Positions 1 through 11,406 of a stretch of 64,000 bases of DNA are shown piece after piece (positions within the stretch are counted from its first letter, which is position 1; each line of letters opens with the position of its first letter). The notes under the pieces were generated by a model. That model saw nothing but the letters and a program-made list of their open reading frames with translations, did no database searches and was not told the DNA's origin. A program made the position numbers and the translations under genes. Location: positions 157,829 through 221,828 of the forward strand of contig NZ_KN266207.1 of the NCBI RefSeq assembly GCF_000766945.1, written 5' to 3'. The DNA comes from Cellvibrio mixtus subsp. mixtus J3-8. GTDB taxonomy: Bacteria; Pseudomonadota; Gammaproteobacteria; Pseudomonadales; Cellvibrionaceae.

Positions 1-2805
1 GCCGAACACTGTTTGCCAATCTTTAATTGAACTCACTGCATTCGTTTTTTCGGTACAGTGTGCAAGCAAGGAAAAGTTATCGGTTTTGAAATCCCGTGAT
101 TTTTCACCCAGCTGTTCAGCGTGTTTAACTAGCCACTCCTGAATCAAAAACACTTTAGGGGCATTATCGCCCAACACTTTTTTATATTCGGCGCGATAAG
201 CCAATGTCATTGCTGGCTCAATGCCGATTAGAGGAATACCTGAGGAAGCAATTCCATTTAACTGTGTAGCATTTGCGTCGGCAGCTTTGGCAAATGCCTT
301 AAGGAAACCGTGAACTTGTAATGGCTTACCATTGGGTTTGAACGGAGCTAATAATGGGATGAATCCCAATTTTTTAAGCAGCTTCAATGTATCAATGACC
401 AGCGGTGTTTCAAAATAACTGGTAAAAGCGTCCTGTACTAAAATGACAGCTTTGTTTTTTTCAGCAGGTGTTAATTGTGCTATGTTTTCCAGTGTTGCAT
501 AGCTAACGCCCAGTTTTTCAGCGGCTTTGTGCAGATTGATACCGGTTAGTAAAGGACTGTCGACCATGCCGATAAAACGCTCCATCACTTTCTGCATAAA
601 TTGCGGTTTCATCAACAAGTTATACGCCCATGGGAATTTGGCGAGAGTTGGAACCATAAATTCCAGTCCACCAATAAAATAGTCTTTAAGCGGGCGTAAA
701 TAACGGCTGTAATAAAGCTCAAGGAATTTTGCACGGAATTCTGGCACGTCGACTTTAATAGGACATTGTCCTACGCAAGATTTGCAAGCGAGACAACCAG
801 CCATCGATTCATGTACTTCATGGGAAAAATCGTATTCGCCTTTACGTTTTCCTATTGTATTTGCAATGCGTATTGGCAAATTGAAAATAAAGCTCGCACG
901 TTTTAGTTTTTTACTTTCTTCTATAACGTTAACTCCACGCTCACTCATTTGTTTAAGCCATTCACGCATTAATGATGCGCGGCCTTTAGGGGAGTGTTTG
1001 CGTTCGCGCGTGCCTTTCCAGCTTGGGCACATGGCATCGTTAGGGTTCCAGTTATAACAAAGACCATTGCCGTTACAATGTACACCTTCACTATACCCAT
1101 CCCAAACTTGCACCATAATTTTACGGTCTTGCTGGCCGCGAGTAGGTACGCCATCAATTTTGGATAGTTCAATACTTGCTGCGGGTGTAGCAATTTTGCC
1201 AGGATTTAATTGATTGTACGGATCGAAAACAGCTTTAATACGCTGGATTTGGGGATATAGCTCGCCAAAAAATGCTGGTGCATATTCGGAGCGAACGCCT
1301 TTGCCGTGTTCGCCCCAGAGCAAGCCATTGTATTTTTGAGTGAGGGCGACAACTTTGTCGGTAATGATACGCACCATTTTTTCCTGCGCAGGATCTTTCA
1401 TATCCAGAGCGGGGCGCACGTGCAAAACACCGGCATCCACATGGCCAAACATGCCATACGTTAATTTATGCTCATCCAGAACTGCGCGGAATTCGAAAAT
1501 AAAATCAGCAAGGTTCTCCGGGGGAACCGCAGTATCTTCCACAAACGGGACGGGGCGAATTTCACCTTCGACATTCCCGAGCAGGCCTACGGCTTTCTTG
1601 CGCATCCCCCAGATTTTATTGACAGCATCGCTACCCCAGGCAACGGAGTAGCTGATACGGCCGGTGGTAATATCCAGGGCAAATTGATCAAGCAAATCAG
1701 TGAGTTTTTTTACTTCTGTATTTAGTTCAGCTTCAGAGTCCGCAGTGTATTCGACCAGATTTATACCCTGGATTTTTTCTCCATTCACTGGTGCAGGGAA
1801 AAACTCTGCCACACTGTGCCAGACGATATCATTCATTGCGAGGTTTAATACTTTTGAATCCACAGTTTCAATGGATGTGGGATTCGCTTTCATCAGCTCA
1901 GTAGCATCGCGCAGTGCAACATTAAAGTCGCGATAATTAACGTTGATCAGAGCGCTGAATTTGGGGATAGGTAATAAATTAATTTTTGCTTCGGCAATAA
2001 AACCGAGTGTGCCTTCGCTACCACATAAAATATTGTTTAAATTGAAGCGGCCTTGTTCATCGCGAATGTGTGCAAGGTCGTAGCCTGTCAGGCAGCGATT
2101 GAGCTTTGGAAATTTTTGTTCAATAAGGCCGCTATGTTCGCGCTGGATCGCATCCACCACACGGTGAGCTTCACCTACACGGTCATCTCGTTTCCATAAG
2201 TCTTCCAGTTCACGTTCTTCAACGGCGCTAGATGTCCAGAGGCTGCCATCCAGAAAAACAGTAGTTAGTTCCAGCACATGATCACGGGTTTTGCCATAAC
2301 GGCAAGAGCCTTGGCCGGAGGCGTCGGTGTTGATCATACCGCCGATAGTGGCGCGATTGCTGGTTGATAACTCTGGCGCAAAAAATAATCCATGGGGCTT
2401 AATGGCGGCATTGAGTTGATCCTTAACCACACCGCATTGGACTCTGACCCAACGTTCCTCGGCATTGATTTCCAGGATCTTGTTCATGTACTTGGAGGTG
2501 TCTACTACCAATCCGTCCGTAAGCGATTGCCCATTGGTGCCTGTGCCACCACCACGCGGACTGAGCACTATGGTATGAAACTCCGGTTGCTGGCTAAGTT
2601 TGGCAATCTTTACCAGATCTGCCGTATTGCGTGGGTAAAGCACCCCTTGCGGTAGTACCTGATAAATCGAGTTATCTGTTGCAAGTACTGTGCGGTTGGC
2701 GTAGTCCGGGTTGAGGTCACCACTGAAACCTGCGTCGCGCAGGGCATTAATAAAGCCCAGGTATAAGGTTTGGGTAGGGGAGGTCTGGTTTATACGTGGA
2801 ATCAT
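1..2805 (-). CDS. ydiJ: YdiJ-type D-2-hydroxyglutarate dehydrogenase (FAD + 4Fe-4S), C-terminus cut by window edge
   Basis: The minus-strand frame is open from an ATG at 2805 to the left edge, giving 935 codons. The family is about 1,020 residues, so roughly the last 80 are outside. The N-terminus (MIPRINQTSPTQ, then TDNSIYQVLPQG and YPRNTADL) matches YdiJ. The order expected is FAD_binding_4, FAD-oxidase C domain, then an iron-sulfur domain. I read CNGNGLC followed by a CPSWKGTRERKHSPKGRA segment, and further on a GCLACKSCVGQCP cluster typical of a 4Fe-4S ferredoxin-like domain. Known role of the family: cytosolic oxidation of D-2-hydroxyglutarate to 2-oxoglutarate, removing a by-product of serine synthesis. 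It is monocistronic as far as visible, and divergent from an AraC-type regulator. Confidence 0.93.
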   Translation of the reverse strand, partial: MIPRINQTSPTQTLYLGFINALRDAGFSGDLNPDYANRTVLATDNSIYQVLPQGVLYPRNTADLVKIAKLSQQPEFHTIVLSPRGGGTGTNGQSLTDGLVVDTSKYMNKILEINAEERWVRVQCGVVKDQLNAAIKPHGLFFAPELSTSNRATIGGMINTDASGQGSCRYGKTRDHVLELTTVFLDGSLWTSSAVEERELEDLWKRDDRVGEAHRVVDAIQREHSGLIEQKFPKLNRCLTGYDLAHIRDEQGRFNLNNILCGSEGTLGFIAEAKINLLPIPKFSALINVNYRDFNVALRDATELMKANPTSIETVDSKVLNLAMNDIVWHSVAEFFPAPVNGEKIQGINLVEYTADSEAELNTEVKKLTDLLDQFALDITTGRISYSVAWGSDAVNKIWGMRKKAVGLLGNVEGEIRPVPFVEDTAVPPENLADFIFEFRAVLDEHKLTYGMFGHVDAGVLHVRPALDMKDPAQEKMVRIITDKVVALTQKYNGLLWGEHGKGVRSEYAPAFFGELYPQIQRIKAVFDPYNQLNPGKIATPAASIELSKIDGVPTRGQQDRKIMVQVWDGYSEGVHCNGNGLCYNWNPNDAMCPSWKGTRERKHSPKGRASLMREWLKQMSERGVNVIEESKKLKRASFIFNLPIRIANTIGKRKGEYDFSHEVHESMAGCLACKSCVGQCPIKVDVPEFRAKFLELYYSRYLRPLKDYFIGGLEFMVPTLAKFPWAYNLLMKPQFMQKVMERFIGMVDSPLLTGINLHKAAEKLGVSYATLENIAQLTPAEKNKAVILVQDAFTSYFETPLVIDTLKLLKKLGFIPLLAPFKPNGKPLQVHGFLKAFAKAADANATQLNGIASSGIPLIGIEPAMTLAYRAEYKKVLGDNAPKVFLIQEWLVKHAEQLGEKSRDFKTDNFSLLAHCTEKTNAVSSIKDWQTVFG

Positions 2806-3544
2806 GGGACTTAAACAACCAACAAAAAAGAAAGTTCATAAAGGCAAAAGTAGGTGCGCATTCTACCTTGATAGAGTGCCAAAGTCGCCTCGGTAATAAG
2901 TCAGTGTAGTGCTGTTTGCGTGTTTTTTGATCTGCTGTTGTGTGCGGATTGGGTAGAGGGGGGGCGTCAAAAAGCATCTCCTAAGGGAAATGGGCATATT
3001 GTTGTAAAACGTCTCATTACCCCCCAGTCTTATGCTTTTACTAAAGACAGAGAAGCTTAATAAGCTTTTAAAACTATTGGGGGTGAACACCTCGCTGGTC
3101 TTAAATGCGCGATAAAAAATATGTGAATATTTTTGTTCTTTTATATTTCAAAAACGAATATTGAATTAAAGAAAATAAGTTTCTTTAAAAGAAGTGTTTG
3201 CTAAACATTGATAGGTTCGGGCGATTGCTAATGATCACGGTATTGGCTTGATCACCCTTTATATATCGGATATTGATGCTTCTTTATGCGTCAAATGCAG
3301 GTCAAAACCAAAAAGGAAAGTGCAAAAATAATTACGACTAATTTGATTTTTGTCGCTTCTTTTAAGGTTGCAACGAAGATATATCTCATTTGGCAATTAT
3401 CCCGCGCCGCTTAAGTAGCTAGAGACTGCATCAAAATGATTATGTTATGATCGGGCCAAGCGCAGTATGCAGTTTTTTGATGCAACTGCAGGGATTGTCT
3501 CGATTGGTTTTCATATTTACCTAAAGATGTAAGGAGCGGCTTAA
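2806..3544. other. 739-bp intergenic region between divergent ydiJ and AraC-type gene
   Basis: I find no convincing gene here; the short frames lack family features and good ribosome binding sites. The stretch is AT-rich from about 3100 and should hold the divergent promoters. A small palindrome (AAGCTTAATAAGCTT, around 3053) and G/C-run inverted segments near 3020 and 3080 are the only other structure I noticed. A small RNA cannot be excluded. Confidence 0.5.
3427..3484. promoter_or_regulatory. Inverted repeat upstream of AraC-type gene (candidate operator)
   Basis: TGCATCAAAA at 3427-3436 is repeated as its exact reverse complement TTTTGATGCA at 3475-3484, separated by 38 bp. It ends 60 bp before the start codon of the AraC-type gene. 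The spacing is unlike a terminator hairpin and fits two half-sites for a regulator, but the binding protein is unknown. Confidence 0.4.
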
Positions 3545-3985
3545 ATGATTCAGCTACAACGCAACTACGGTAACGCTCTGCTTGATGGGGAGCTGTCCCA
3601 ACCGCCTATTCATACGTATCAGGAGTATTTGACTCTGGCGCAAATTCCTCACTGTGAGGGTGTTTCTGCGCGGGTTGTTGATGCATTGCATCAACGTGTT
3701 GGGCGTACTGATTTATCAATAGAACAAATTGCATCGGACCTGCATTTAACCAAGCGTACATTGCAGCGCCGTTTACAAAGTCAAAATACCAATTTTGCTC
3801 AATTGCGTGACGATCTGCGGTTTCATTATGCTATCAAATATCTTATTGATGACAATATGAGCGTTGATCTTGTATCCAGGGCACTGGACTTTTCTGACAG
3901 AACCAGCTTTACCAATGCCTTCAAGCGTTGGACAGGATTATCTCCCAGTACATTCCGTAAACTGTTCAGAGATTATCAGGCTTGA
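3545..3985 (+). CDS. Stand-alone AraC-family DNA-binding domain protein
   Basis: This 146-residue protein is essentially only the AraC C-terminal double helix-turn-helix (about residues 45-143). The first HTH is around IEQIASDLHLTKRTLQRRL and the second around SVDLVSRALDFSDRTSFTNAF, followed by the family's WTGLSPSTFRK ending. The usual N-terminal ligand or dimerisation domain of about 150 residues is absent; only some 40 unassigned residues precede the HTH. An AAGGAG ribosome binding site lies 8-9 nt before the ATG. It is probably a transcription factor, whose target could be the divergent ydiJ or its own promoter. It may be a natural short form or the remnant of a longer regulator. Confidence 0.8.
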   Translation: MIQLQRNYGNALLDGELSQPPIHTYQEYLTLAQIPHCEGVSARVVDALHQRVGRTDLSIEQIASDLHLTKRTLQRRLQSQNTNFAQLRDDLRFHYAIKYLIDDNMSVDLVSRALDFSDRTSFTNAFKRWTGLSPSTFRKLFRDYQA

Positions 3986-4027
3986 TTTATTTGTAAGATG
4001 GTAGAGATGGATCTCTTCCCTTACTGG

Positions 4028-5002
4028 TTAATGTAGTATTCCAGTGGGAGCTTTAATCGGTAGGCTGGCTGATGCTGGTGCATCACTAATGACAGCGCAA
4101 TAATAGTTAACCGTTCCCTGTATGCGTGTTGCCGGGTGTATATTCAAAATCGCATTTTCCATTCCTGGTTCGTAAAACCCATCTGCTGTATGAAATAAAG
4201 GCACAAAATTGCGAGATGCAATTGCCTTATAGAGTTCATCTGGCGCCCCTTCTTCTTGTAAAATTTGTACATGCTCCTGAATATCTTCTTCGGTGTAAAT
4301 AACGCAAGAGAACGTTTTTTCATCTCGTGTGCGCAACTCAAATCTGGACGGATTGATAAGATAGTAATATTCGCTGACACCGAGTGTTTCGCATGCCTCC
4401 TCAAAATAGCGAGCTAGCTTAGGGTCGGCAAAAAAAGGAGTGCTGCTATCTATCGCCTCAGTCTTAAGGCTGCTTGACAAATCGTTAAAGTAAGAATGTT
4501 GCAGTTGGTTAATGGCTTCTTTTAGCTCATGCAGCATATTCTCATCATTCTTTTTAAGGTAATAATGAATGGTATTGTTGTTAAATGCCCTGACCGCTTC
4601 TGTTGGCGTTGCATAACCAGTTAATAATATTTTCTTGATTGCTGAATTTTTTATTTTCTCGCAAAACTCAATGCCATTCATTGATGGCATTGAATAATCA
4701 ACTACGAGCACTGACACCTCTTTTATTCGCAGTTCATCAAATCGTTTGATATTTTGATGGGTGAGTACTTGTTTTACCCAAGCGTCTGAGTCGCCCTGCA
4801 GCTTGGGTTTCTCATCGTTGGCGATGAGTTGCGCCTCTCTTTGGTGCTCATTTATATATTTTAAGGCAGCATCTGTATCATCAAAGGATTTGACATTAAA
4901 GTGCTTGGAGAATGTCACGGATAACGTATCCAGAAACTCACGATTATCATCGACAAATACAATTTGCGTTGGATAAAAGTAAAGAGGAATTTTAGATTTC
5001 AC
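4028..5002 (-). CDS. Response regulator with an insertion-containing receiver and no DNA-binding domain
   Basis: 324 residues, with a GTG start chosen because it leads straight into the first receiver strand. Receiver signature residues are all present: acidic pair D18-D19 (IVFVDDN), phosphoacceptor D102 (LVVDYSMPSMNG), T128 (LLTGYAT) and K150 (YYLKK). The gap between acidic pair and phospho-Asp is about 83 residues against roughly 40 in a normal receiver, so around 40 extra residues (about 52-92) are inserted after the second strand. Residues 165-324 form a domain I do not recognise; it lacks an obvious HTH, GGDEF, EAL or HD motif. The gene follows the sensor kinase by 188 bp on the same strand, so it is the likely phosphorylation partner, with output probably by protein contact. 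Confidence 0.8.
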   Translation of the reverse strand: MKSKIPLYFYPTQIVFVDDNREFLDTLSVTFSKHFNVKSFDDTDAALKYINEHQREAQLIANDEKPKLQGDSDAWVKQVLTHQNIKRFDELRIKEVSVLVVDYSMPSMNGIEFCEKIKNSAIKKILLTGYATPTEAVRAFNNNTIHYYLKKNDENMLHELKEAINQLQHSYFNDLSSSLKTEAIDSSTPFFADPKLARYFEEACETLGVSEYYYLINPSRFELRTRDEKTFSCVIYTEEDIQEHVQILQEEGAPDELYKAIASRNFVPLFHTADGFYEPGMENAILNIHPATRIQGTVNYYCAVISDAPASASLPIKAPTGILH

Positions 5003-5190
5003 GCCAGCTATCCCGCAGTGATTGATGATTTAGAAGCTTATATAGTAAGGTAAATAGCTACACTTATGGGAATATTGTATGTCAATTATGGTGAGCTGTG
5101 GAGCCAGCATAAGGATTTTATGGTTGCCTGGTTAACGAGATGCTCATTCTATTTTAATATGCCATCTGGTATGTCAGCAATTTAGTTTGT

Positions 5191-7284
5191 TTATTGACTG
5201 TTTCTTTTTTCAACAAGATAAGTTGCGCGCCGCTCAGCGAGTTCATCTTTAGCTGTTTCACCTTGGGGCTCCTCCAGTGCGATCTGTGTCGCAAAAAAAC
5301 ATAATTTAAATTCTGAACCTTTTTCAAGGCTGCTTTTGACCTCTATGCGTGCATTGTGCTCATCAACAATGCGCTTGATGGCCTGCATCCCAATGCCATT
5401 ACCAAATTTTTTAGCACTAAGGCCAGGCTCCCATAAAGAGGCAAGTTGTTGTTCTGACATTCCCGTGCCATTATCTTTTACAGAAAGAAATATATTTCCA
5501 TCTTCGATCCATGATTTTATATGAAGTACAAGATCGTGGTTATCGCGGCGCGCTTCGGCAGCATTTTTAATCAGGTTAATAAAAAGGATTTTCAGGTCTT
5601 CCGCATCACCTCTGATTTTAGGGGTGCCCCCAAAGTCATATTCAACTTTATCAAATGATTTTTCGAATAAATAAAGACAATCTTGCACCACGGATTCAAG
5701 CGCGCAAGGTTGGATGCGTCGTTTATGTTTTCCACCAAGAATACTTGCCATCGTAGCGATAAGCCGCGATCCACGTTCGACTTGTTCCAATACTATGTCT
5801 CTTTGTTTGTCGCGATCATAAATATCATTTGAAAGTACACCATCGATAATAGCGAAAGGTACTTTAATATCGTGATGGTAATGGTTCATTAAACTGAGCA
5901 TTGATAGGGTCTTTTTGGCTTCACCGAGCTGATCTTGCATGTGGTTCAGGCGAATTAAGCGGCTAAATACTTGTCCTAGCTCCGATTTGAGCCACTCGAA
6001 AATTTTGAGATCTTCGTAACGATAATAGGAAAAGCTCGTGGGATTACCAACGAGTACAATTGCTAATACTTTGTTATCTGAAAATACCGGGAAACATAAA
6101 GATGCGTTATATTTTTTCATTTCAATTTGCAATGCTTCCGGCATCTCATCGGCCATGATCAATTGTGTTTGCAAGGCGCAGTATGCCAGGAGAGGACTAT
6201 CTTCCGAGACGGTGTCAAACAAAAAAACATTGTGGTGGTAGTTACTTTCGCTTGACAGTAAGCCGTCTTGTTGAACCATTAAAATTTTATAGTCATTTAA
6301 TTTTATGATTCGCAGCAGAAGGTGATCCATAACATCTTGCATCATGGAGAAGCTGATTGAATTTTTGAGATCGTATTCAGTTTCTGCTTTGACTTGGTCA
6401 AAATCGTAACTATTTTTTACCAGTATTTTTTTTGCGCTGGGTAGAATCCATTTTAATAATCGGGGGTAGGCTTCTAGCATTAATACAAGAAATGCAAGCA
6501 GGGTTAATACCCCGCCAATAGACTGCGTGTGATCACCTACCACTGAGGTAACAACGAAATACATCCACACAAAAAAAGCTAATAAAATAGCCTTGGTTAA
6601 CCCCAGGCTTAGTGCAAGCCTAATGTCCATCAGGTTGTGTTGAATTGTTGAATAAAATAATAAGGAAACAAAAAGAATGTTAGTAATGATGCCAACAAAT
6701 TTGGATAAGTAAAATTCCAAGCCGGTTGGCATTGAAAACAGGACAATTAAGCCGCAACTAAAACTTACCAGCAGCGTTATAAGTAGCCATTTGAGGCGTT
6801 GTTTTTCCCGGTTTGAAGATGTGTTGTAAGAGAGTCCAACCAAACAAATTGAGCCTACAAAACACCATACCAAATAACCAATAAAAACATAATAAATTGT
6901 ATCTAGCTGAGGAAGGTACCCACTATCAGTTTCTTTCAGTTCAGATGGAAATATGAACATGTTTAAAAACCACAATGCACAACTAAAAAAAGCTCCAAAA
7001 ATTATAAAAACATTTTTAAATTTTTTTGACCTGCCACCGACTAACCTCCAGGTTAATAGAGCAAAGCCAAAAGGAATGAAAAACATACCTCCACGGGTGA
7101 TGTGAAAAAGAATATCCAGTAGATAAACATTGGTTATTGTCGTTAGCAAGAAAAGCTCTAGTAACCAAATACTCAAGGCGAGTAAAAGGAATGCCAATGC
7201 CTTGGCGGCAGGGTTATCTTTTTTGGAAAAAGCTAACCCAGCTAACCCAAGATCAAACAGTGCCGTAATTAAGTACTGGATCAT
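5191..7284 (-). CDS. Multi-TM sensor histidine kinase (PrsK-like layout) coupled to an acyltransferase gene
   Basis: 697 residues. Residues 1-285 contain seven to nine hydrophobic segments, a 7TM-like input module embedded in the inner membrane. Residues about 300-445 look like a GAF-type domain. The dimerisation/phosphotransfer helix carries the likely phosphoacceptor H471 in HHDIKVPF. The ATPase domain follows, with N-box N574 (INLIKNAAEA), G1 box DNGTGMS (D604) and G2 box GNGIGM (about 628-633). The arrangement recalls PrsK-type kinases of exopolysaccharide systems. The start overlaps the end of the acyltransferase gene by 32 bp, which implies translational coupling, so the ligand may be the product of that acyltransferase. 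That link is inference. Confidence 0.85.
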   Translation of the reverse strand: MIQYLITALFDLGLAGLAFSKKDNPAAKALAFLLLALSIWLLELFLLTTITNVYLLDILFHITRGGMFFIPFGFALLTWRLVGGRSKKFKNVFIIFGAFFSCALWFLNMFIFPSELKETDSGYLPQLDTIYYVFIGYLVWCFVGSICLVGLSYNTSSNREKQRLKWLLITLLVSFSCGLIVLFSMPTGLEFYLSKFVGIITNILFVSLLFYSTIQHNLMDIRLALSLGLTKAILLAFFVWMYFVVTSVVGDHTQSIGGVLTLLAFLVLMLEAYPRLLKWILPSAKKILVKNSYDFDQVKAETEYDLKNSISFSMMQDVMDHLLLRIIKLNDYKILMVQQDGLLSSESNYHHNVFLFDTVSEDSPLLAYCALQTQLIMADEMPEALQIEMKKYNASLCFPVFSDNKVLAIVLVGNPTSFSYYRYEDLKIFEWLKSELGQVFSRLIRLNHMQDQLGEAKKTLSMLSLMNHYHHDIKVPFAIIDGVLSNDIYDRDKQRDIVLEQVERGSRLIATMASILGGKHKRRIQPCALESVVQDCLYLFEKSFDKVEYDFGGTPKIRGDAEDLKILFINLIKNAAEARRDNHDLVLHIKSWIEDGNIFLSVKDNGTGMSEQQLASLWEPGLSAKKFGNGIGMQAIKRIVDEHNARIEVKSSLEKGSEFKLCFFATQIALEEPQGETAKDELAERRATYLVEKRNSQ

Positions 7285-7903
7285 TCTTTTCTATGATTTC
7301 CACTTTGCTTCTGATAAAGGCCCTACATTTTTCAACATCGTCACAGATCATCAATACTGTTTTGAAATTGAGGTGAGGGTACGACTTTTCTTCTGATGCA
7401 AGCCTTCCACCGAACATTTGATAAAACTTAATATGCTCAGTGCGAACTGCGACTACAATATTACTGGCTTTTTGCCGTGCTGCTTCCTCAACTGCAGTAC
7501 CCAGAAGCAAGAAACGAGCTTGAATTCCCCCCCTTCTTTGGAATTGAGGGTCTATAACAAATTTGTTGGGTTCTAAAAATACATTGTCATACCCAATTGT
7601 ATTTCGTATTTCCTTTTCGAAACATTCCATGATGGGAATGCCAGCCCCTTTACTTGGATCATATACACATGCTCTTATTGAACCAACGATATTATTTCTA
7701 TGATAAGCCAGAAAGCACACACTGTTAGGCTTTCCATCATATTCGTCAATGAATTTTAGCGACGAATTTTCTTCAATGTACCCTTCTGCGCCATAACTTT
7801 TGTAACGCATGGAATATACCCTGTCTAGCATAGGGCCTTTGGCAACAACGCTATAATAATCGTTTTGGTGAACTTCTTGTCTTTGGATTGCGGAATTTAA
7901 CAT
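7253..7903 (-). CDS. Autoinducer-synthase-like / FeeM-like N-acyltransferase (GNAT fold)
   Basis: 216 residues, preceded by an AAGGGG ribosome binding site. The pattern matches acyl-homoserine-lactone and N-acyl-amino-acid synthases and the exosortase-associated acyltransferases: an early RVYSMRYKSYGAEGY segment, then IDEYDG, a LAYHRNNIVGSIRA strand, and the acyl-CoA/ACP-binding region FVIDPQFQRRGGIQARFLL. The C-terminal part (HIKFYQMFGGRL) resembles the closing GNAT strand. Family members transfer an acyl chain from acyl-ACP or acyl-CoA to an amine such as an amino acid or homoserine lactone. It is first in a three-gene block with a 7TM sensor kinase and a response regulator, suggesting production and sensing of an acylated signal. 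An ordinary metabolic GNAT is the main alternative. Confidence 0.7.
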   Translation of the reverse strand: MLNSAIQRQEVHQNDYYSVVAKGPMLDRVYSMRYKSYGAEGYIEENSSLKFIDEYDGKPNSVCFLAYHRNNIVGSIRACVYDPSKGAGIPIMECFEKEIRNTIGYDNVFLEPNKFVIDPQFQRRGGIQARFLLLGTAVEEAARQKASNIVVAVRTEHIKFYQMFGGRLASEEKSYPHLNFKTVLMICDDVEKCRAFIRSKVEIIEKNDPVLNYGTV

Positions 7904-8286
7904 TTTGATACCCCTTATTTAATTTTTCAGTAGAGTTGTTTGAAAGTCTTTATTTGTAAGTCTTTGTGGATGTTTTAAGCGACATACCAGAAAAAAGTGA
8001 CGCCAGATTTTTTTGATTTGGCGTCGAACTCCATTATGCTTAAAAAATGTTCGCTCTAAAACAATCCTTTTGTAACGAGCATGTAAGTTGTGAAATGATT
8101 TACGAGATGCTGACTTTCGTCAGTTTAAGACAGCGACCAGGGTGAATAAGATGCCTATGCTGTAACAGTTTTTTTGAGAGGGCGATCCAATAATTCTTAA
8201 AAAGGTAGCTATTTGGGACTGTTATCTTTGAAGGGGCAGGGAAAATATTCAGGAATTCGTTAATTCACATCCCATGGTTAGTAACG
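7904..8286. other. 383-bp divergent promoter region of the signalling block
   Basis: The acyltransferase operon (minus) and the second regulator (plus) are transcribed away from this region. It contains a terminator-like hairpin listed separately, and, on the minus strand between that hairpin and the acyltransferase start, the 8-mer AAAGACTT twice. I saw no lux-box-like palindrome. Confidence 0.5.
7999..8025 (-). terminator. Terminator-like hairpin in the leader of the acyltransferase operon
   Basis: Arms 7999-8008 and 8016-8025 pair over 10 bp with one G-U pair and a 7-nt loop. On the minus strand the hairpin is followed by ACTTTTTT, the form of an intrinsic terminator. No minus-strand gene lies upstream; it sits about 95 nt before the acyltransferase start, so it may act as an attenuator. 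Confidence 0.5.
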
Positions 8287-9003
8287 ATGACAGATAAACA
8301 AGATCAATATGAACAACAAAGCGTCGAAACTCTCTTTCATGATATTGCTACGCCATTAGTAATTTCCAAAATGAAGGCCGAGCTTCTAGCCAAACATTTG
8401 CCAGCAATTATCACCACGTTGGTGCAATCTCCGGAGCTGCGTCATTTGTTACCAAATGATGAAACGTTGATCGATGCCCTCCTAACGGCACCTGACATAA
8501 TGCAATCAAATTTGCAGCTCGTTCAAAAAAAAATAAACCTGTTATCTGCCTCGATGTTGCACCAGGCCAATAATTTTGCCTCTGTTACGAATCCTCCCGA
8601 GTTTGACGGTGGATCTGGAATACCAGTAAGGACTGTTGCAATTAGAACTGTCTTGTTAGTGGATGATGAAGCTGTCCATCGCGATATAGGTGAGAGTTTA
8701 CTGACACCGCTTTATGACGTGGACTTTGCTAAAAATGGATTGGAAGCCATTAGTTTGTGTGAGCAAAAGCATTACGACTTGATTTTGATGGATTTGCACA
8801 TGCCTAAAATGAACGGTGAGCAGGCTACCATTGCGCTGCGTCCCCGTATCAGCAGTGAAACGATTATCATCGGTTTGACCAGTTTGCCTATAGGTGCCAA
8901 TCGATCCGGATTGTTAGCCATGGGGTTTACTGATTTCCTCGAAAAACCGCTAACCCTAAAGAGCTTACAAAAGTTATTGCGATCCCAATCACTAAATGCG
9001 TAA
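8287..9003 (+). CDS. Response regulator with N-terminal DHp-like helix (HDIATPL) and C-terminal receiver
   Basis: 238 residues. The N-terminal 100 residues are helical and include FHDIATPLVISKMKAELL, which resembles the H-box of a histidine kinase dimerisation domain with H18 as potential phosphoacceptor; no ATPase domain follows. After a linker the receiver (about 120-235) has all key residues: D126-D127 (LLVDDE), D169 (LILMDLHMPKMNG), T198 and K220 (EKPL). The protein could be a phosphorelay intermediate that accepts phosphate at the receiver and hands it to or from H18, or a kinase remnant reduced to DHp plus receiver. It is divergent from the acyltransferase-kinase-regulator block and 56 bp upstream of a TonB receptor gene on the same strand. 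Confidence 0.75.
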   Translation: MTDKQDQYEQQSVETLFHDIATPLVISKMKAELLAKHLPAIITTLVQSPELRHLLPNDETLIDALLTAPDIMQSNLQLVQKKINLLSASMLHQANNFASVTNPPEFDGGSGIPVRTVAIRTVLLVDDEAVHRDIGESLLTPLYDVDFAKNGLEAISLCEQKHYDLILMDLHMPKMNGEQATIALRPRISSETIIIGLTSLPIGANRSGLLAMGFTDFLEKPLTLKSLQKLLRSQSLNA

Positions 9004-9059
9004 CATCTCCAGTTCATCTTTAAGCGACAAAACTGTAAAGCCGGGGGCACCGTTCGTTC

Positions 9060-11219
9060 ATGGGTATAACAATTAAAAGAATCCTGTCTTCAAAAGGTTT
9101 TTGTCTGGCCGGTCTACTAGTTGGTTCCTCCTCCAGCACGATGGTGTGGTCTCAAGCTGCGCCAGTTGTGGATGAAGTTCTGGTTACAGCGCAAATGCGT
9201 GAGGAGTCCGTTCAAAATATTCCCCTGGCTATTGGCGTTTATGACAAGCAATTGATTGATCGGGTTGGTGCCAGTTCGCTAACGGAAATGGAAGGCGCTA
9301 TACCGTCGTTAAATTTTGGCAGTGGTGACAGGAATACCCGTGGTGAAATTACCATCCGGGGAGTTGGTGACTACGCGCGGAATATTGGCACCAACGCGCG
9401 GGTTGCTGTTTATGTCGATGGCGTATTAACCGGACGTTCTTCCAGCTTTGATCAGGGGCTGCTGGATGTTGCCCACATAGAAGTATTGCGCGGTCCCCAG
9501 GGAACCTTGTCTGGCACCAATGCCCTGGCGGGTTCTATTAATATAATTACCCAAAAACCGGAAGATACGTTTAGCGCCGAATTGCTGGCCAATACCGGGA
9601 ATTATGGTTTGGCTGCTGTTACCGGGAAAGTTAATGCGCCGCTCTCGGATGATCTTTTTGTCAGCGTGTTGTTAGGCACGAGTGAACAGGATGGTTACAT
9701 CCGTAATATTACGCTTGATCGCGAATTGCAGGGCGCCAACCGCGATACCGCAAAATTAAAGTTTCGTTATGTTGGTGTTGATCAGTTAATTGTCGATATT
9801 GGTTTTGATTATTTAAAGGATGAAGATAAGTCGACCAATGCCGAGGCCCTTGGTAATGGAATGTTTAATGGTTTTACGCTTGCGCCGGAGCCTTTTGTCG
9901 TAGCGCACAACGCCGATGAATTTGAACAACGTGAATTGAAAGGTGCAACCATCGAAGCCGTCTATGAAACGCCGGAAAATTATAAATGGACATCTATTAC
10001 CGGTTTTCGTAGTAATGAATTTCGTGAGTTGAGTGAAGAGGATTATTCGCCATTAAATGTAGCGGTTAGCATTTTTGATGAGCAAAGTGACCAAATCAGC
10101 CAGGAAATCAGATTGGCTTCACCCAAAAATGAGTCGTGGGATTATGTGGTCGGTGCTTATTTTCTCAATCAGGATATTTCTACTGAGCGGCAGGCGATTA
10201 CCGGTCCGGTATTTCTGTTGGCTCCCAACGGGCGAGTGCAAACACCTGCATCAGCGGAGGTAGAATCTGCCTCTATGTTTCTTCACGGCAATTATTATTT
10301 TGATGCACGCTGGAGTTTGACTGCGGGTGTCCGCTACGTGAATGAAACAAAAGATATCGATTACTCCAGCATTGACTCAACCAAAATGTTTATAAATACG
10401 AGCCATTTAACCGATCAAAAAACGTTTAACGAATGGTTGCCAAAGCTGGGGCTTAATTTCCAAATAACCCCCGATGTGTTGCTCTATACCAGCGTTGCGC
10501 GCGGCTATAAAAGCGGTGGTTGGAATGCTGATTTTATTACCACGCTGGAGAATTTCCAGTTTGATCCCGAATATGCGGTGAATTATGAAGCCGGAGCAAA
10601 ATCATTATTCTTTGATCGTCGCCTTACGGTGAATGTGTCTACGTTTGTAACTAAATTCGATGATTTCCAGGTGTTTCAATTTTTACCAACACAGGCAACT
10701 AACGGAACCGTGTTGTCATTGACCAATGCAGGCAAGGTCACCAGTAAAGGCGTTGAACTGGATATTAGTGCGGCACTTACCGAACATTTGCAATTCAGTG
10801 TCAACACCGCCTATACCAGTGCCAGGTTTGATGAATTCCAAAATGGTGGCGGCATAGGGAAAAATTATGACGATCACTATTTGCCTTACGCGCCTAAAAA
10901 TAATTATTTTGTAGCATTGGATTACAGCAGACCGGTATTCAGTGAGGCAAAAATGTATTCCCACATTGATTACGGTTATACCGACGACTACTTTTCCAAC
11001 CCCAACAATCTGCCAGGTAATAGAATTCCCGGTCGCAGCCTCACCAATGCTCGTTTGGGAATCAAGGTTGATGATTCATGGGATATCTCACTGTGGGTGA
11101 AAAACCTTGCTGATGACATCAGTTTGCGGCAGAAGTCAGTATCTTTTTTAGGTGTCCCGAGAGGTGTTTACAATTCGCCTCGCACGTACGGGTTAGAGCT
11201 TAAATACTTTTTCAATTAA
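9060..11219 (+). CDS. TonB-dependent outer-membrane receptor
   Basis: 719 residues: N-terminal signal peptide (about 1-32), a TonB-box-like stretch (VDEVLVTAQ), a plug domain (about 45-165) with IRGVGDYARN, VYVDGVLTGR and the IEVLRGPQGTLSGTNALAGSINIITQKP signature region, and a beta-barrel ending in aromatic residues (YFFN) as outer-membrane proteins do. Such receptors import iron chelates, vitamins or oligosaccharides using TonB energy. Substrate is not readable; proximity to the glucan locus hints at an oligosaccharide, but the signalling block on the other side is closer. The ATG has only a weak ribosome binding site, so the true start could be slightly different. A strong terminator follows. 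Confidence 0.9.
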   Translation: MGITIKRILSSKGFCLAGLLVGSSSSTMVWSQAAPVVDEVLVTAQMREESVQNIPLAIGVYDKQLIDRVGASSLTEMEGAIPSLNFGSGDRNTRGEITIRGVGDYARNIGTNARVAVYVDGVLTGRSSSFDQGLLDVAHIEVLRGPQGTLSGTNALAGSINIITQKPEDTFSAELLANTGNYGLAAVTGKVNAPLSDDLFVSVLLGTSEQDGYIRNITLDRELQGANRDTAKLKFRYVGVDQLIVDIGFDYLKDEDKSTNAEALGNGMFNGFTLAPEPFVVAHNADEFEQRELKGATIEAVYETPENYKWTSITGFRSNEFRELSEEDYSPLNVAVSIFDEQSDQISQEIRLASPKNESWDYVVGAYFLNQDISTERQAITGPVFLLAPNGRVQTPASAEVESASMFLHGNYYFDARWSLTAGVRYVNETKDIDYSSIDSTKMFINTSHLTDQKTFNEWLPKLGLNFQITPDVLLYTSVARGYKSGGWNADFITTLENFQFDPEYAVNYEAGAKSLFFDRRLTVNVSTFVTKFDDFQVFQFLPTQATNGTVLSLTNAGKVTSKGVELDISAALTEHLQFSVNTAYTSARFDEFQNGGGIGKNYDDHYLPYAPKNNYFVALDYSRPVFSEAKMYSHIDYGYTDDYFSNPNNLPGNRIPGRSLTNARLGIKVDDSWDISLWVKNLADDISLRQKSVSFLGVPRGVYNSPRTYGLELKYFFN

Positions 11220-11250
11220 TCTTTTGCATAATTAAAACTCCTTTCATTTG

Positions 11251-11284
11251 AACCCGGATTGGCTAGCCAATCCGGGTTTTTCAC
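11251..11284 (+). terminator. Intrinsic terminator after the TonB receptor gene
   Basis: A perfect 28-nt palindrome (AACCCGGATTGGCT and its reverse complement, 11251-11278) runs into a T-rich tail. It lies 31 bp after the receptor stop codon. Confidence 0.9.
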
Positions 11285-11353
11285 CTATTTCCCTGCAATA
11301 TCAACTGCTTATTGGCTGTTCAAAAAATACTCCAGAAAAACCTTGCAAAATAA

Positions 11354-11393
11354 TACTGTGTGTAACATAGTAATTACTGTGTATTGCATAGTA
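11354..11393 (+). promoter_or_regulatory. Tandem palindromic operators upstream of padR-type gene
   Basis: Two 19-bp copies of TACTGTGTNNNNCATAGTA occur at 11354-11372 and 11375-11393, each an imperfect palindrome (TACT...AGTA) and spaced 21 bp start to start, two helical turns. The second copy ends 13 bp before the chosen ATG. The form fits PadR-family operators and implies autorepression. Confidence 0.7.
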
Positions 11394-11406
11394 TATGAGG
11401 CACAGT

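Follow-up and report, generated by a model that had tools for sequence, protein, structure and literature searches.

A putative FeeM-type signal synthase and its apparent co-inheritance with a kinase sensor region at an LqsR-type locus of Cellvibrio mixtus

Genes of the locus

We analyzed a 64,000-nucleotide stretch of Cellvibrio mixtus subsp. mixtus J3-8 (contig NZ_KN266207.1, positions 157,829 to 221,828), hereafter the window, in which an earlier note made from the sequence alone had proposed a signal-production-and-sensing module of four genes at positions 4028 to 9003. The four open reading frames (ORFs) were found at the coordinates claimed, and the 32-bp overlap of the acyltransferase and kinase genes (7253-7284) was borne out. 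The four genes stand as described, and the module extends further: the gene of a TonB-dependent outer-membrane receptor, outside the first description, is a conserved member that belongs to the set in 10 of 17 loci of close relatives. The main parts are the following.

4028 to 5002, minus strand: response regulator (RR) of the LqsR family, 324 residues; receiver with phosphoacceptor D102, and an output domain of about 150 residues
5191 to 7284, minus strand: membrane histidine kinase, 697 residues; transmembrane sensor, weak GAF region, H-box NHYHHDIK and HATPase domain
7253 to 7903, minus strand: FeeM-type N-acyltransferase, candidate signal synthase, 216 residues; putative catalytic Glu at residue 111
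6640 to 7732, minus strand: exchange cassette with its own tree; synthase residues ~58-216 and kinase residues 1-215 (six hydrophobic peaks)
7904 to 8286, no strand: intergenic region between divergent genes; holds a conserved block resembling a promoter; outside the exchanged cassette
8287 to 9003, plus strand: helical-hairpin and receiver protein (HDr), 238 residues; candidate phosphotransfer partner
9060 to 11219, plus strand: TonB-dependent outer-membrane receptor (TBDR), 56 bases 3' of the HDr end on the same strand

The product of 7253-7903 had been described as an acyltransferase of LuxI/FeeM type, and the FeeM part of this description held. The protein scored 118.9 bits against Pfam FeeM (PF21926, cut-off 27), its predicted fold is the FeeM fold, and E111, conserved in 14 of 14 aligned rows, aligned to chain index 96 of 2g0b. 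This index probably corresponds to Glu95, assuming one extra residue in the chain; the catalytic glutamate is Glu95 in FeeM and Glu103 in Nas354, according to an excerpt of PMC4897644. The same excerpt states that FeeM relatives yield surface-active N-acyl tyrosines, and that FeeM/Nas synthases are known as single enzymes, as pathway enzymes or in linkage to PEP-CTERM systems, their physiological function being unclear. The LuxI part was not retained, as PF00765 was absent from the Pfam matches at E 1; a genome-wide search with PF00765 gave no match either, but its controls were silent too, which makes it uninformative. A housekeeping GNAT such as a ribosomal-protein acetylase was also rejected: NCBIfam gave only TIGR03694 at E 1 and nothing at 1e-4, and the general Pfam model Acetyltransf_1 reached 20.3 bits, just below its cut-off of 20.7. 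TIGR03694, the PEP-CTERM acyltransferase, does not identify the synthase (15.9 bits vs a cut-off of 111.95). A true TIGR03694 PEP-CTERM/exosortase acyltransferase (232 bits) sits on another contig of the same genome (locus L037, 9092-9895), and tonB- and exbB/tolQ-like genes come after it.

The kinase scored above the Pfam cut-offs for HisKA_7TM (residues 4-211) and HATPase_c, its GAF match stayed below cut-off, and 8 hydrophobic peaks were counted in its residues 1-273. It had been described as a 7TM-type kinase, which agrees with these matches, and as PrsK-like, which was rejected (TIGR02916, 76.8 bits vs a cut-off of 300). With TIGR02916 and TIGR03694 both far below their cut-offs and the PEP-CTERM acyltransferase of the genome on another contig, the suggested link to PrsK and exosortase systems had to be abandoned.

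The RR matched Pfam Response_reg, and no DNA-binding domain was listed at E 1, as the earlier note had noticed. Its profile matched PDB entry 6sy9 over profile positions 4-306 of 324 (E 3.1e-66), and its single sequence matched the same entry with phmmer over residues 25-331 (E 1.4e-36), which spans the output domain. The PDB record reads just 'Response regulator'; we take it to be LqsR. RR residue D102 aligned with chain residue D128 of 6sy9, which would be LqsR Asp108, a residue named in an excerpt of PMC5289986, provided that the chain has a 20-residue tag. Relatives of the RR were found in 25 of 369 genomes of a class sample at E 1e-30. We inspected 29 LqsR-type loci of this sample and scanned four large neighbours against NCBIfam, two of which proved to be alpha-hydroxyketone autoinducer synthases (NF005526; 566 bits in L068 and 540 bits in L070, cut-off 428), with a short kinase also at hand in both loci. 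These synthase neighbours, together with the alignment of D102 to Asp108, support the identity of 6sy9 with LqsR, and by sequence comparison we assign the regulator at 4028-5002 to the LqsR quorum-sensing family. In the window's own genome NF005526 (LqsA) had no match at E 1e-60, and it exceeded its cut-off in 1 of 144 family genomes. LqsR/PhcX orthologues occur in 310 of 6,937 proteobacterial genomes, their output function is uncertain, and one member is tied to the Phc and not the Lqs system, as given in an excerpt of PMC10653808.

HDr also matched Pfam Response_reg, with no DNA-binding domain listed at E 1. Its conserved residues are H18, which lies in the motif FHDIATPL and is invariant in 15 rows, and D169. 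An AlphaFold2 model (predicted local distance difference test, pLDDT, 79.3; predicted template-modelling score, pTM, 0.51) places helices at residues 2-47 and 59-98, followed by the receiver. Comparison of the hairpin profile with the kinase alignment gave 1.9% probability over 19 columns, and the matches of a fold search were filled by receivers. Since the profile comparison gives no support, HDr was rejected as a proven phosphotransferase; its motif and predicted helical hairpin leave it a candidate phosphotransfer partner, with unproven homology of the hairpin to the dimerization and histidine phosphotransfer (DHp) domains of kinases. The closest NCBIfam relative of the TBDR is the siderophore subfamily TIGR01783, below cut-off (159.2 vs 223.5 bits). 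No known RNA was found at Rfam gathering scores within 3400-11400.

Conservation and joint inheritance

Synthase relatives were detected in 14 of 144 family genomes at E 1e-8, nine of them among the 21 members of the genus, with the own genome counted. Three of 369 genomes of the class sample at E 1e-15 and 15 of 398 of a phylum sample carried a relative (own genome included in both), the others of the phylum sample being more distant, at E 6e-30 or weaker. Three of the four named relatives are Cellvibrio metagenome-assembled genomes, with 82-92% identity. The gene order, which the earlier note had suggested checking in relatives, was conserved: the kinase gene directly follows the synthase gene in all 15 family loci, window counted (one kinase is cut by a contig end and one has broken frames), and the two are also adjacent in the two loci of G288, which belongs to another family, giving 17 of 17 close-relative loci. 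In the locus of G142 (L036, 9726-12405) the synthase and kinase frames are broken, which may reflect a decayed copy or an assembly error.

HDr was found near the synthase-kinase pair in 14 of the 17 loci, at 25-30% identity in L034, L035, L036 and L042, the LqsR-type gene in 10, one of them (G032) through a second contig, and the TBDR in 10. In L030 and L033, from two other genera, RR, HDr and TBDR form a single run beside the synthase-kinase pair, and the Cellvibrio neighbours AraC, PadR and GH16 had no match in the 20-kb stretches of these loci, so all five genes appear to move together. Across the 144 family genomes, counts of both genes, synthase alone, partner alone and neither were 13/1/2/128 for the kinase, 14/0/9/121 for the RR and 10/4/3/127 for the TBDR at 40% identity or more, with Fisher p values of 1e-15 to 3e-10 that are not corrected for kinship. 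The pairing of synthase and kinase is more than chance. For 14 more distant phylum relatives no BLAST match to the window kinase was obtained within 1.5 kb, a check that is weaker in L094, L095 and L100, where the ORF caller failed to recover the synthase ORF. No kinase was found near the distant relative in G333 (L044).

We compared pairwise identities between parts of the locus in seven Cellvibrio species with a complete, contiguous module. Synthase identity correlated at 0.95 with that of kinase residues 1-215, and at -0.07 to 0.06 with kinase residues 216-300, 301-440 and 441-697, RR, HDr, TBDR and AraC. Only 9 of all 5040 relabellings reached 0.95; for the other seven parts, 1643 to 3396 relabellings reached the observed value. 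RR, HDr, TBDR, AraC and kinase residues 301-697 agreed with one another (correlations with RR of 0.82-0.95), with kinase residues 216-300 at 0.41. Three cassette types were distinguished, namely type I (window, L023, L025 and, added later, L024), type II (L026, L029) and type III (L027, L028). The rest of the locus, the backbone, falls into other groups: window, L023 and L029; L024, L025, L026 and L028; and L027.

Trees were built from eight Cellvibrio and two outgroup species, the outgroups on long branches. Bootstrap support was 98-100% for the cassette groups, and 100 and 96 for two backbone groups. The cassette alignment rejected the backbone clades (p 8.7e-28 and 3.3e-7) and the backbone alignment rejected types I, II and III (p 1.4e-4, 1.7e-4 and 8e-9), although these approximately unbiased (AU) p values are somewhat flattered, as the groups were named after the matrices had been seen. 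Types I-III were recovered by the synthase alone and by kinase residues 1-215 alone, with type II support of 95/93 and 88/88, and each of the two parts alone rejected the backbone clades (p 1e-6 to 2.7e-5). Columns were called diagnostic when they mark one of the three cassette groups or one of two backbone groups. In synthase residues 58-216 and kinase residues 1-215, 155 of 157 such columns followed the cassette and 2 the backbone, and in all other parts 16 of 246 followed the cassette and 230 the backbone; these counts and the sliding comparison, affected by the same post hoc grouping, are descriptive. The relabelling test and the later-added G032 are less affected.

Crossovers were placed near synthase residue 58 and kinase residue 215 in both protein and DNA comparisons, the intergenic region 5' of the synthase goes with the backbone, and parsimony on the backbone tree needs four switches. 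The TBDR and the GAF region of the kinase follow the backbone, which argues against either as the type-specific signal reader. Taken together, these alignments indicate that the synthase and the sensor region of the kinase form a single exchangeable cassette, whose inheritance conflicts with that of the other genes of the locus. Such joint inheritance would be expected of a synthase that makes a signal and the receptor that reads it.

Proposed circuit and alternatives

We consider it likely that the locus encodes a quorum-sensing circuit of the kinase type for signalling between cells, in which a FeeM-type synthase replaces LqsA. The enzyme would join a fatty acyl chain from acyl carrier protein to a small amine, probably an amino acid. 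The acylated product would leave the cell and be recognised by the transmembrane half of the kinase (residues 1-215), as the joint inheritance suggests; the lipid-like signal read by a membrane kinase, which the earlier note had proposed, gains support from the cassette and from the LqsR-family regulator. The kinase may then alter the phosphorylation of the LqsR-type regulator and of HDr, which, as no DNA-binding domain was recognised in either, would act via protein contacts. In what is the weakest step, the TBDR may serve the same programme by handling a ligand at the outer membrane, which could be the signal itself. Signal types would diverge between species, with joint exchange keeping synthase and sensor matched.

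Several observations weigh against this circuit. The RR and TBDR were not seen near 7 of the 17 synthase-kinase pairs, one of these loci being cut by a contig end; an LqsR-type gene lies elsewhere in the genomes of four of the seven RR-less loci (G031, G140, G141, G142). G288 has two synthase-kinase pairs and gave no LqsR-type protein at E 1e-10, in a run without a positive control, with a profile that matched 25 of 369 class-sample genomes. In two genomes, G040 and G143, the synthase is missing while kinase, RR and HDr are kept; their loci could be receptor-only listeners or use a different ligand. Furthermore, the idea of a cassette arose from viewing the alignments, the groups of the sliding and column comparisons were taken from the same matrices, and the mosaic evidence comes from eight species only, with the module of G032 split over two contigs. 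Finally, the synthase and sensor genes are adjacent, and one recombination tract could carry both without any functional need.

This last point leads to the alternative that the mosaic is a by-product of linkage, recombination within the conserved synthase residues 1-57 and kinase residues 216-300 moving the intervening DNA with no functional match. The synthase and kinase genes do overlap or adjoin, and both flanking stretches are well conserved, as fits crossover zones. We nevertheless regard this explanation as unlikely, as three cross-backbone pairs switch at about the same two places (at a resolution of ~100 bp), the inner switch point coincides with the end of the sensor domain (HisKA_7TM, 4-211), the rest of the locus holds little such conflict (16 of 246 columns), and at least four switches are involved.

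It is quite unlikely that the synthase makes a surfactant or a siderophore-like metabolite, with the kinase sensing this acylated product or the membrane to control its production, the TBDR re-importing the loaded compound and no cell-to-cell signal. In favour of this are the TBDR in 10 of the loci, its likeness, below cut-off, to a siderophore subfamily and the surface-active N-acyl tyrosines of FeeM relatives (PMC4897644, excerpt). However, the TBDR tracks the backbone and not the synthase, unlike what is expected of a product-specific receptor, it was not seen in the seven remaining loci, and the LqsR-type regulator suggests signalling.

A further alternative, in which the product of the enzyme is an aminolipid of the membrane and the kinase responds to the state of the membrane and not to a released ligand, appears very improbable: some acyltransferases of the same superfamily do make such lipids and the N-terminal 273 residues of the kinase, with their 8 hydrophobic peaks, place the sensor mostly in the membrane, but a general membrane property needs no paired, type-specific divergence of enzyme and sensor, and we saw neither another acyltransferase gene nor a lipid gene in the module.

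Returning to the signalling circuit, we lean, with less assurance, towards a new Gram-negative quorum-sensing class, in which FeeM-type synthases would make species-specific N-acyl amino acid signals (three types in eight Cellvibrio species), the co-inherited transmembrane half of the kinase would sense them, an LqsR-family regulator would relay them, and pherotype cassettes would be exchanged. If so, different signal synthases would plug into LqsR as a general hub, and at least some of the N-acyl amino acid synthases that still lack an explanation would serve to make signals. Here a FeeM-type synthase is tied to a receptor kinase by overlapping genes and, more tellingly, by apparent joint inheritance, through which a signalling role becomes directly testable in harmless bacteria from the environment. 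The locus also suggests that signal systems of several chemistries share the LqsR regulator as their hub, and it provides, in a Gram-negative and with small molecules, an analogue of the pherotype systems based on peptides.

Related systems and minor features

By analogy, the module resembles a kinase-type quorum-sensing pair with an Lqs-type output, and is not a member of the Lqs, LuxI or PEP-CTERM/PrsK systems. Like Lqs (LqsA, LqsS/LqsT, LqsR), it combines a regulator of the LqsR family and a histidine kinase of the membrane with a synthase dedicated to an acyl signal, a putative one in the window. It differs in that the synthase is a FeeM-type GNAT and not the pyridoxal-phosphate-dependent LqsA, for which the genome gave no match at the threshold above, in its long kinase (697 residues) and in having HDr and the TBDR. 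In the Vibrio systems LuxM-LuxN and CqsA-CqsS, the synthase gene adjoins that of a multi-transmembrane receptor kinase that relays to LuxO; the synthase-beside-receptor logic is the same, and the synthases are unrelated to that of the window. In ComX-ComP and Agr pherotype loci, the signal maker and the sensor half of the receptor vary and move together while the kinase half stays, but those are peptide signals of Gram-positives, compared with an acyltransferase in a Gram-negative here.

FeeM/Nas N-acyl amino acid synthases share Pfam family, fold and catalytic Glu with the window's synthase, which in contrast is fixed beside a receptor kinase. LuxI-type acyl-homoserine lactone synthases differ by the lack of a PF00765 match at E 1, and the module is without a LuxR-type gene. 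PEP-CTERM/exosortase acyltransferases with PrsK likewise combine a GNAT acyltransferase and a 7TM kinase, but the low scores given above and the true TIGR03694 protein elsewhere in the genome separate them from the module. The Phc system with PhcX also re-uses an LqsR-family regulator with a different synthase system, although its signal system and genes differ and PhcX lies with the phc cluster (PMC10653808, excerpt). A search of literature that excludes most subscription journals found no published description of this combination, and an excerpt of PMC7843935 has LqsR only within a reference.

We also observed loci with an LqsR-type gene or HDr and other companions. L052 (9219-15305) and L053 (9477-13169) hold RR, HDr and a long kinase, L052 also a TBDR, with no synthase, and may be receptor-only loci. 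In synthase-less relatives, five of five such loci combine an LqsR-type gene with genes for a short 7TM kinase and a hotdog thioesterase-like protein of the 4HBT_2 kind (L045 8491-8997, L046 10677-11183, L047 8385-8951, L048 8573-9100 and L051 8729-9214). The short kinases are 56-86% identical to that of L047 and the hotdogs 52-93% identical; three hotdogs were scanned with Pfam, that of L051 being slightly below cut-off. The hotdog gene had no match in the first 15 loci or the window, and these loci are possibly a sister system with another signal enzyme. Among the 29 LqsR-type loci of the wider class, 12 of 16 flanking candidates of ~200-260 residues are mutually homologous (L065, L066, L071-L073, L078, L080, L081, L083, L084, L087, L088); no Pfam match was obtained in the 5 tested, and by eye they resemble helix-turn-helix repressors.

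Three further features lie in or beside the module.

3545 to 3985, plus strand: AraC-type regulator, adjoining the RR only in same-genus loci; membership uncertain
7974 to 7984, minus strand: copy of TGTCGCTTAAA upstream of the synthase; possible shared element
9019 to 9029, minus strand: copy of TGTCGCTTAAA upstream of the TBDR; possible shared element

Between the divergent genes, at 8110-8123, we noted the palindrome CTGACGAAAGTCAG, which is kept in L023 and L029, has one mismatch in L027 and was not found at up to two mismatches in L024, L025, L026 and L028. As a genome-wide operator TGTCGCTTAAA was rejected, with 5 exact genomic copies vs 8 for a reversed control and no sign of a regulon. 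Only the within-module pair is notable: two of the five genomic copies, the sole exact ones of the 64-kb window, lie 5' of the synthase and 5' of the TBDR, and the pair is also present in L023, L027 and L029 with at most one mismatch per copy.
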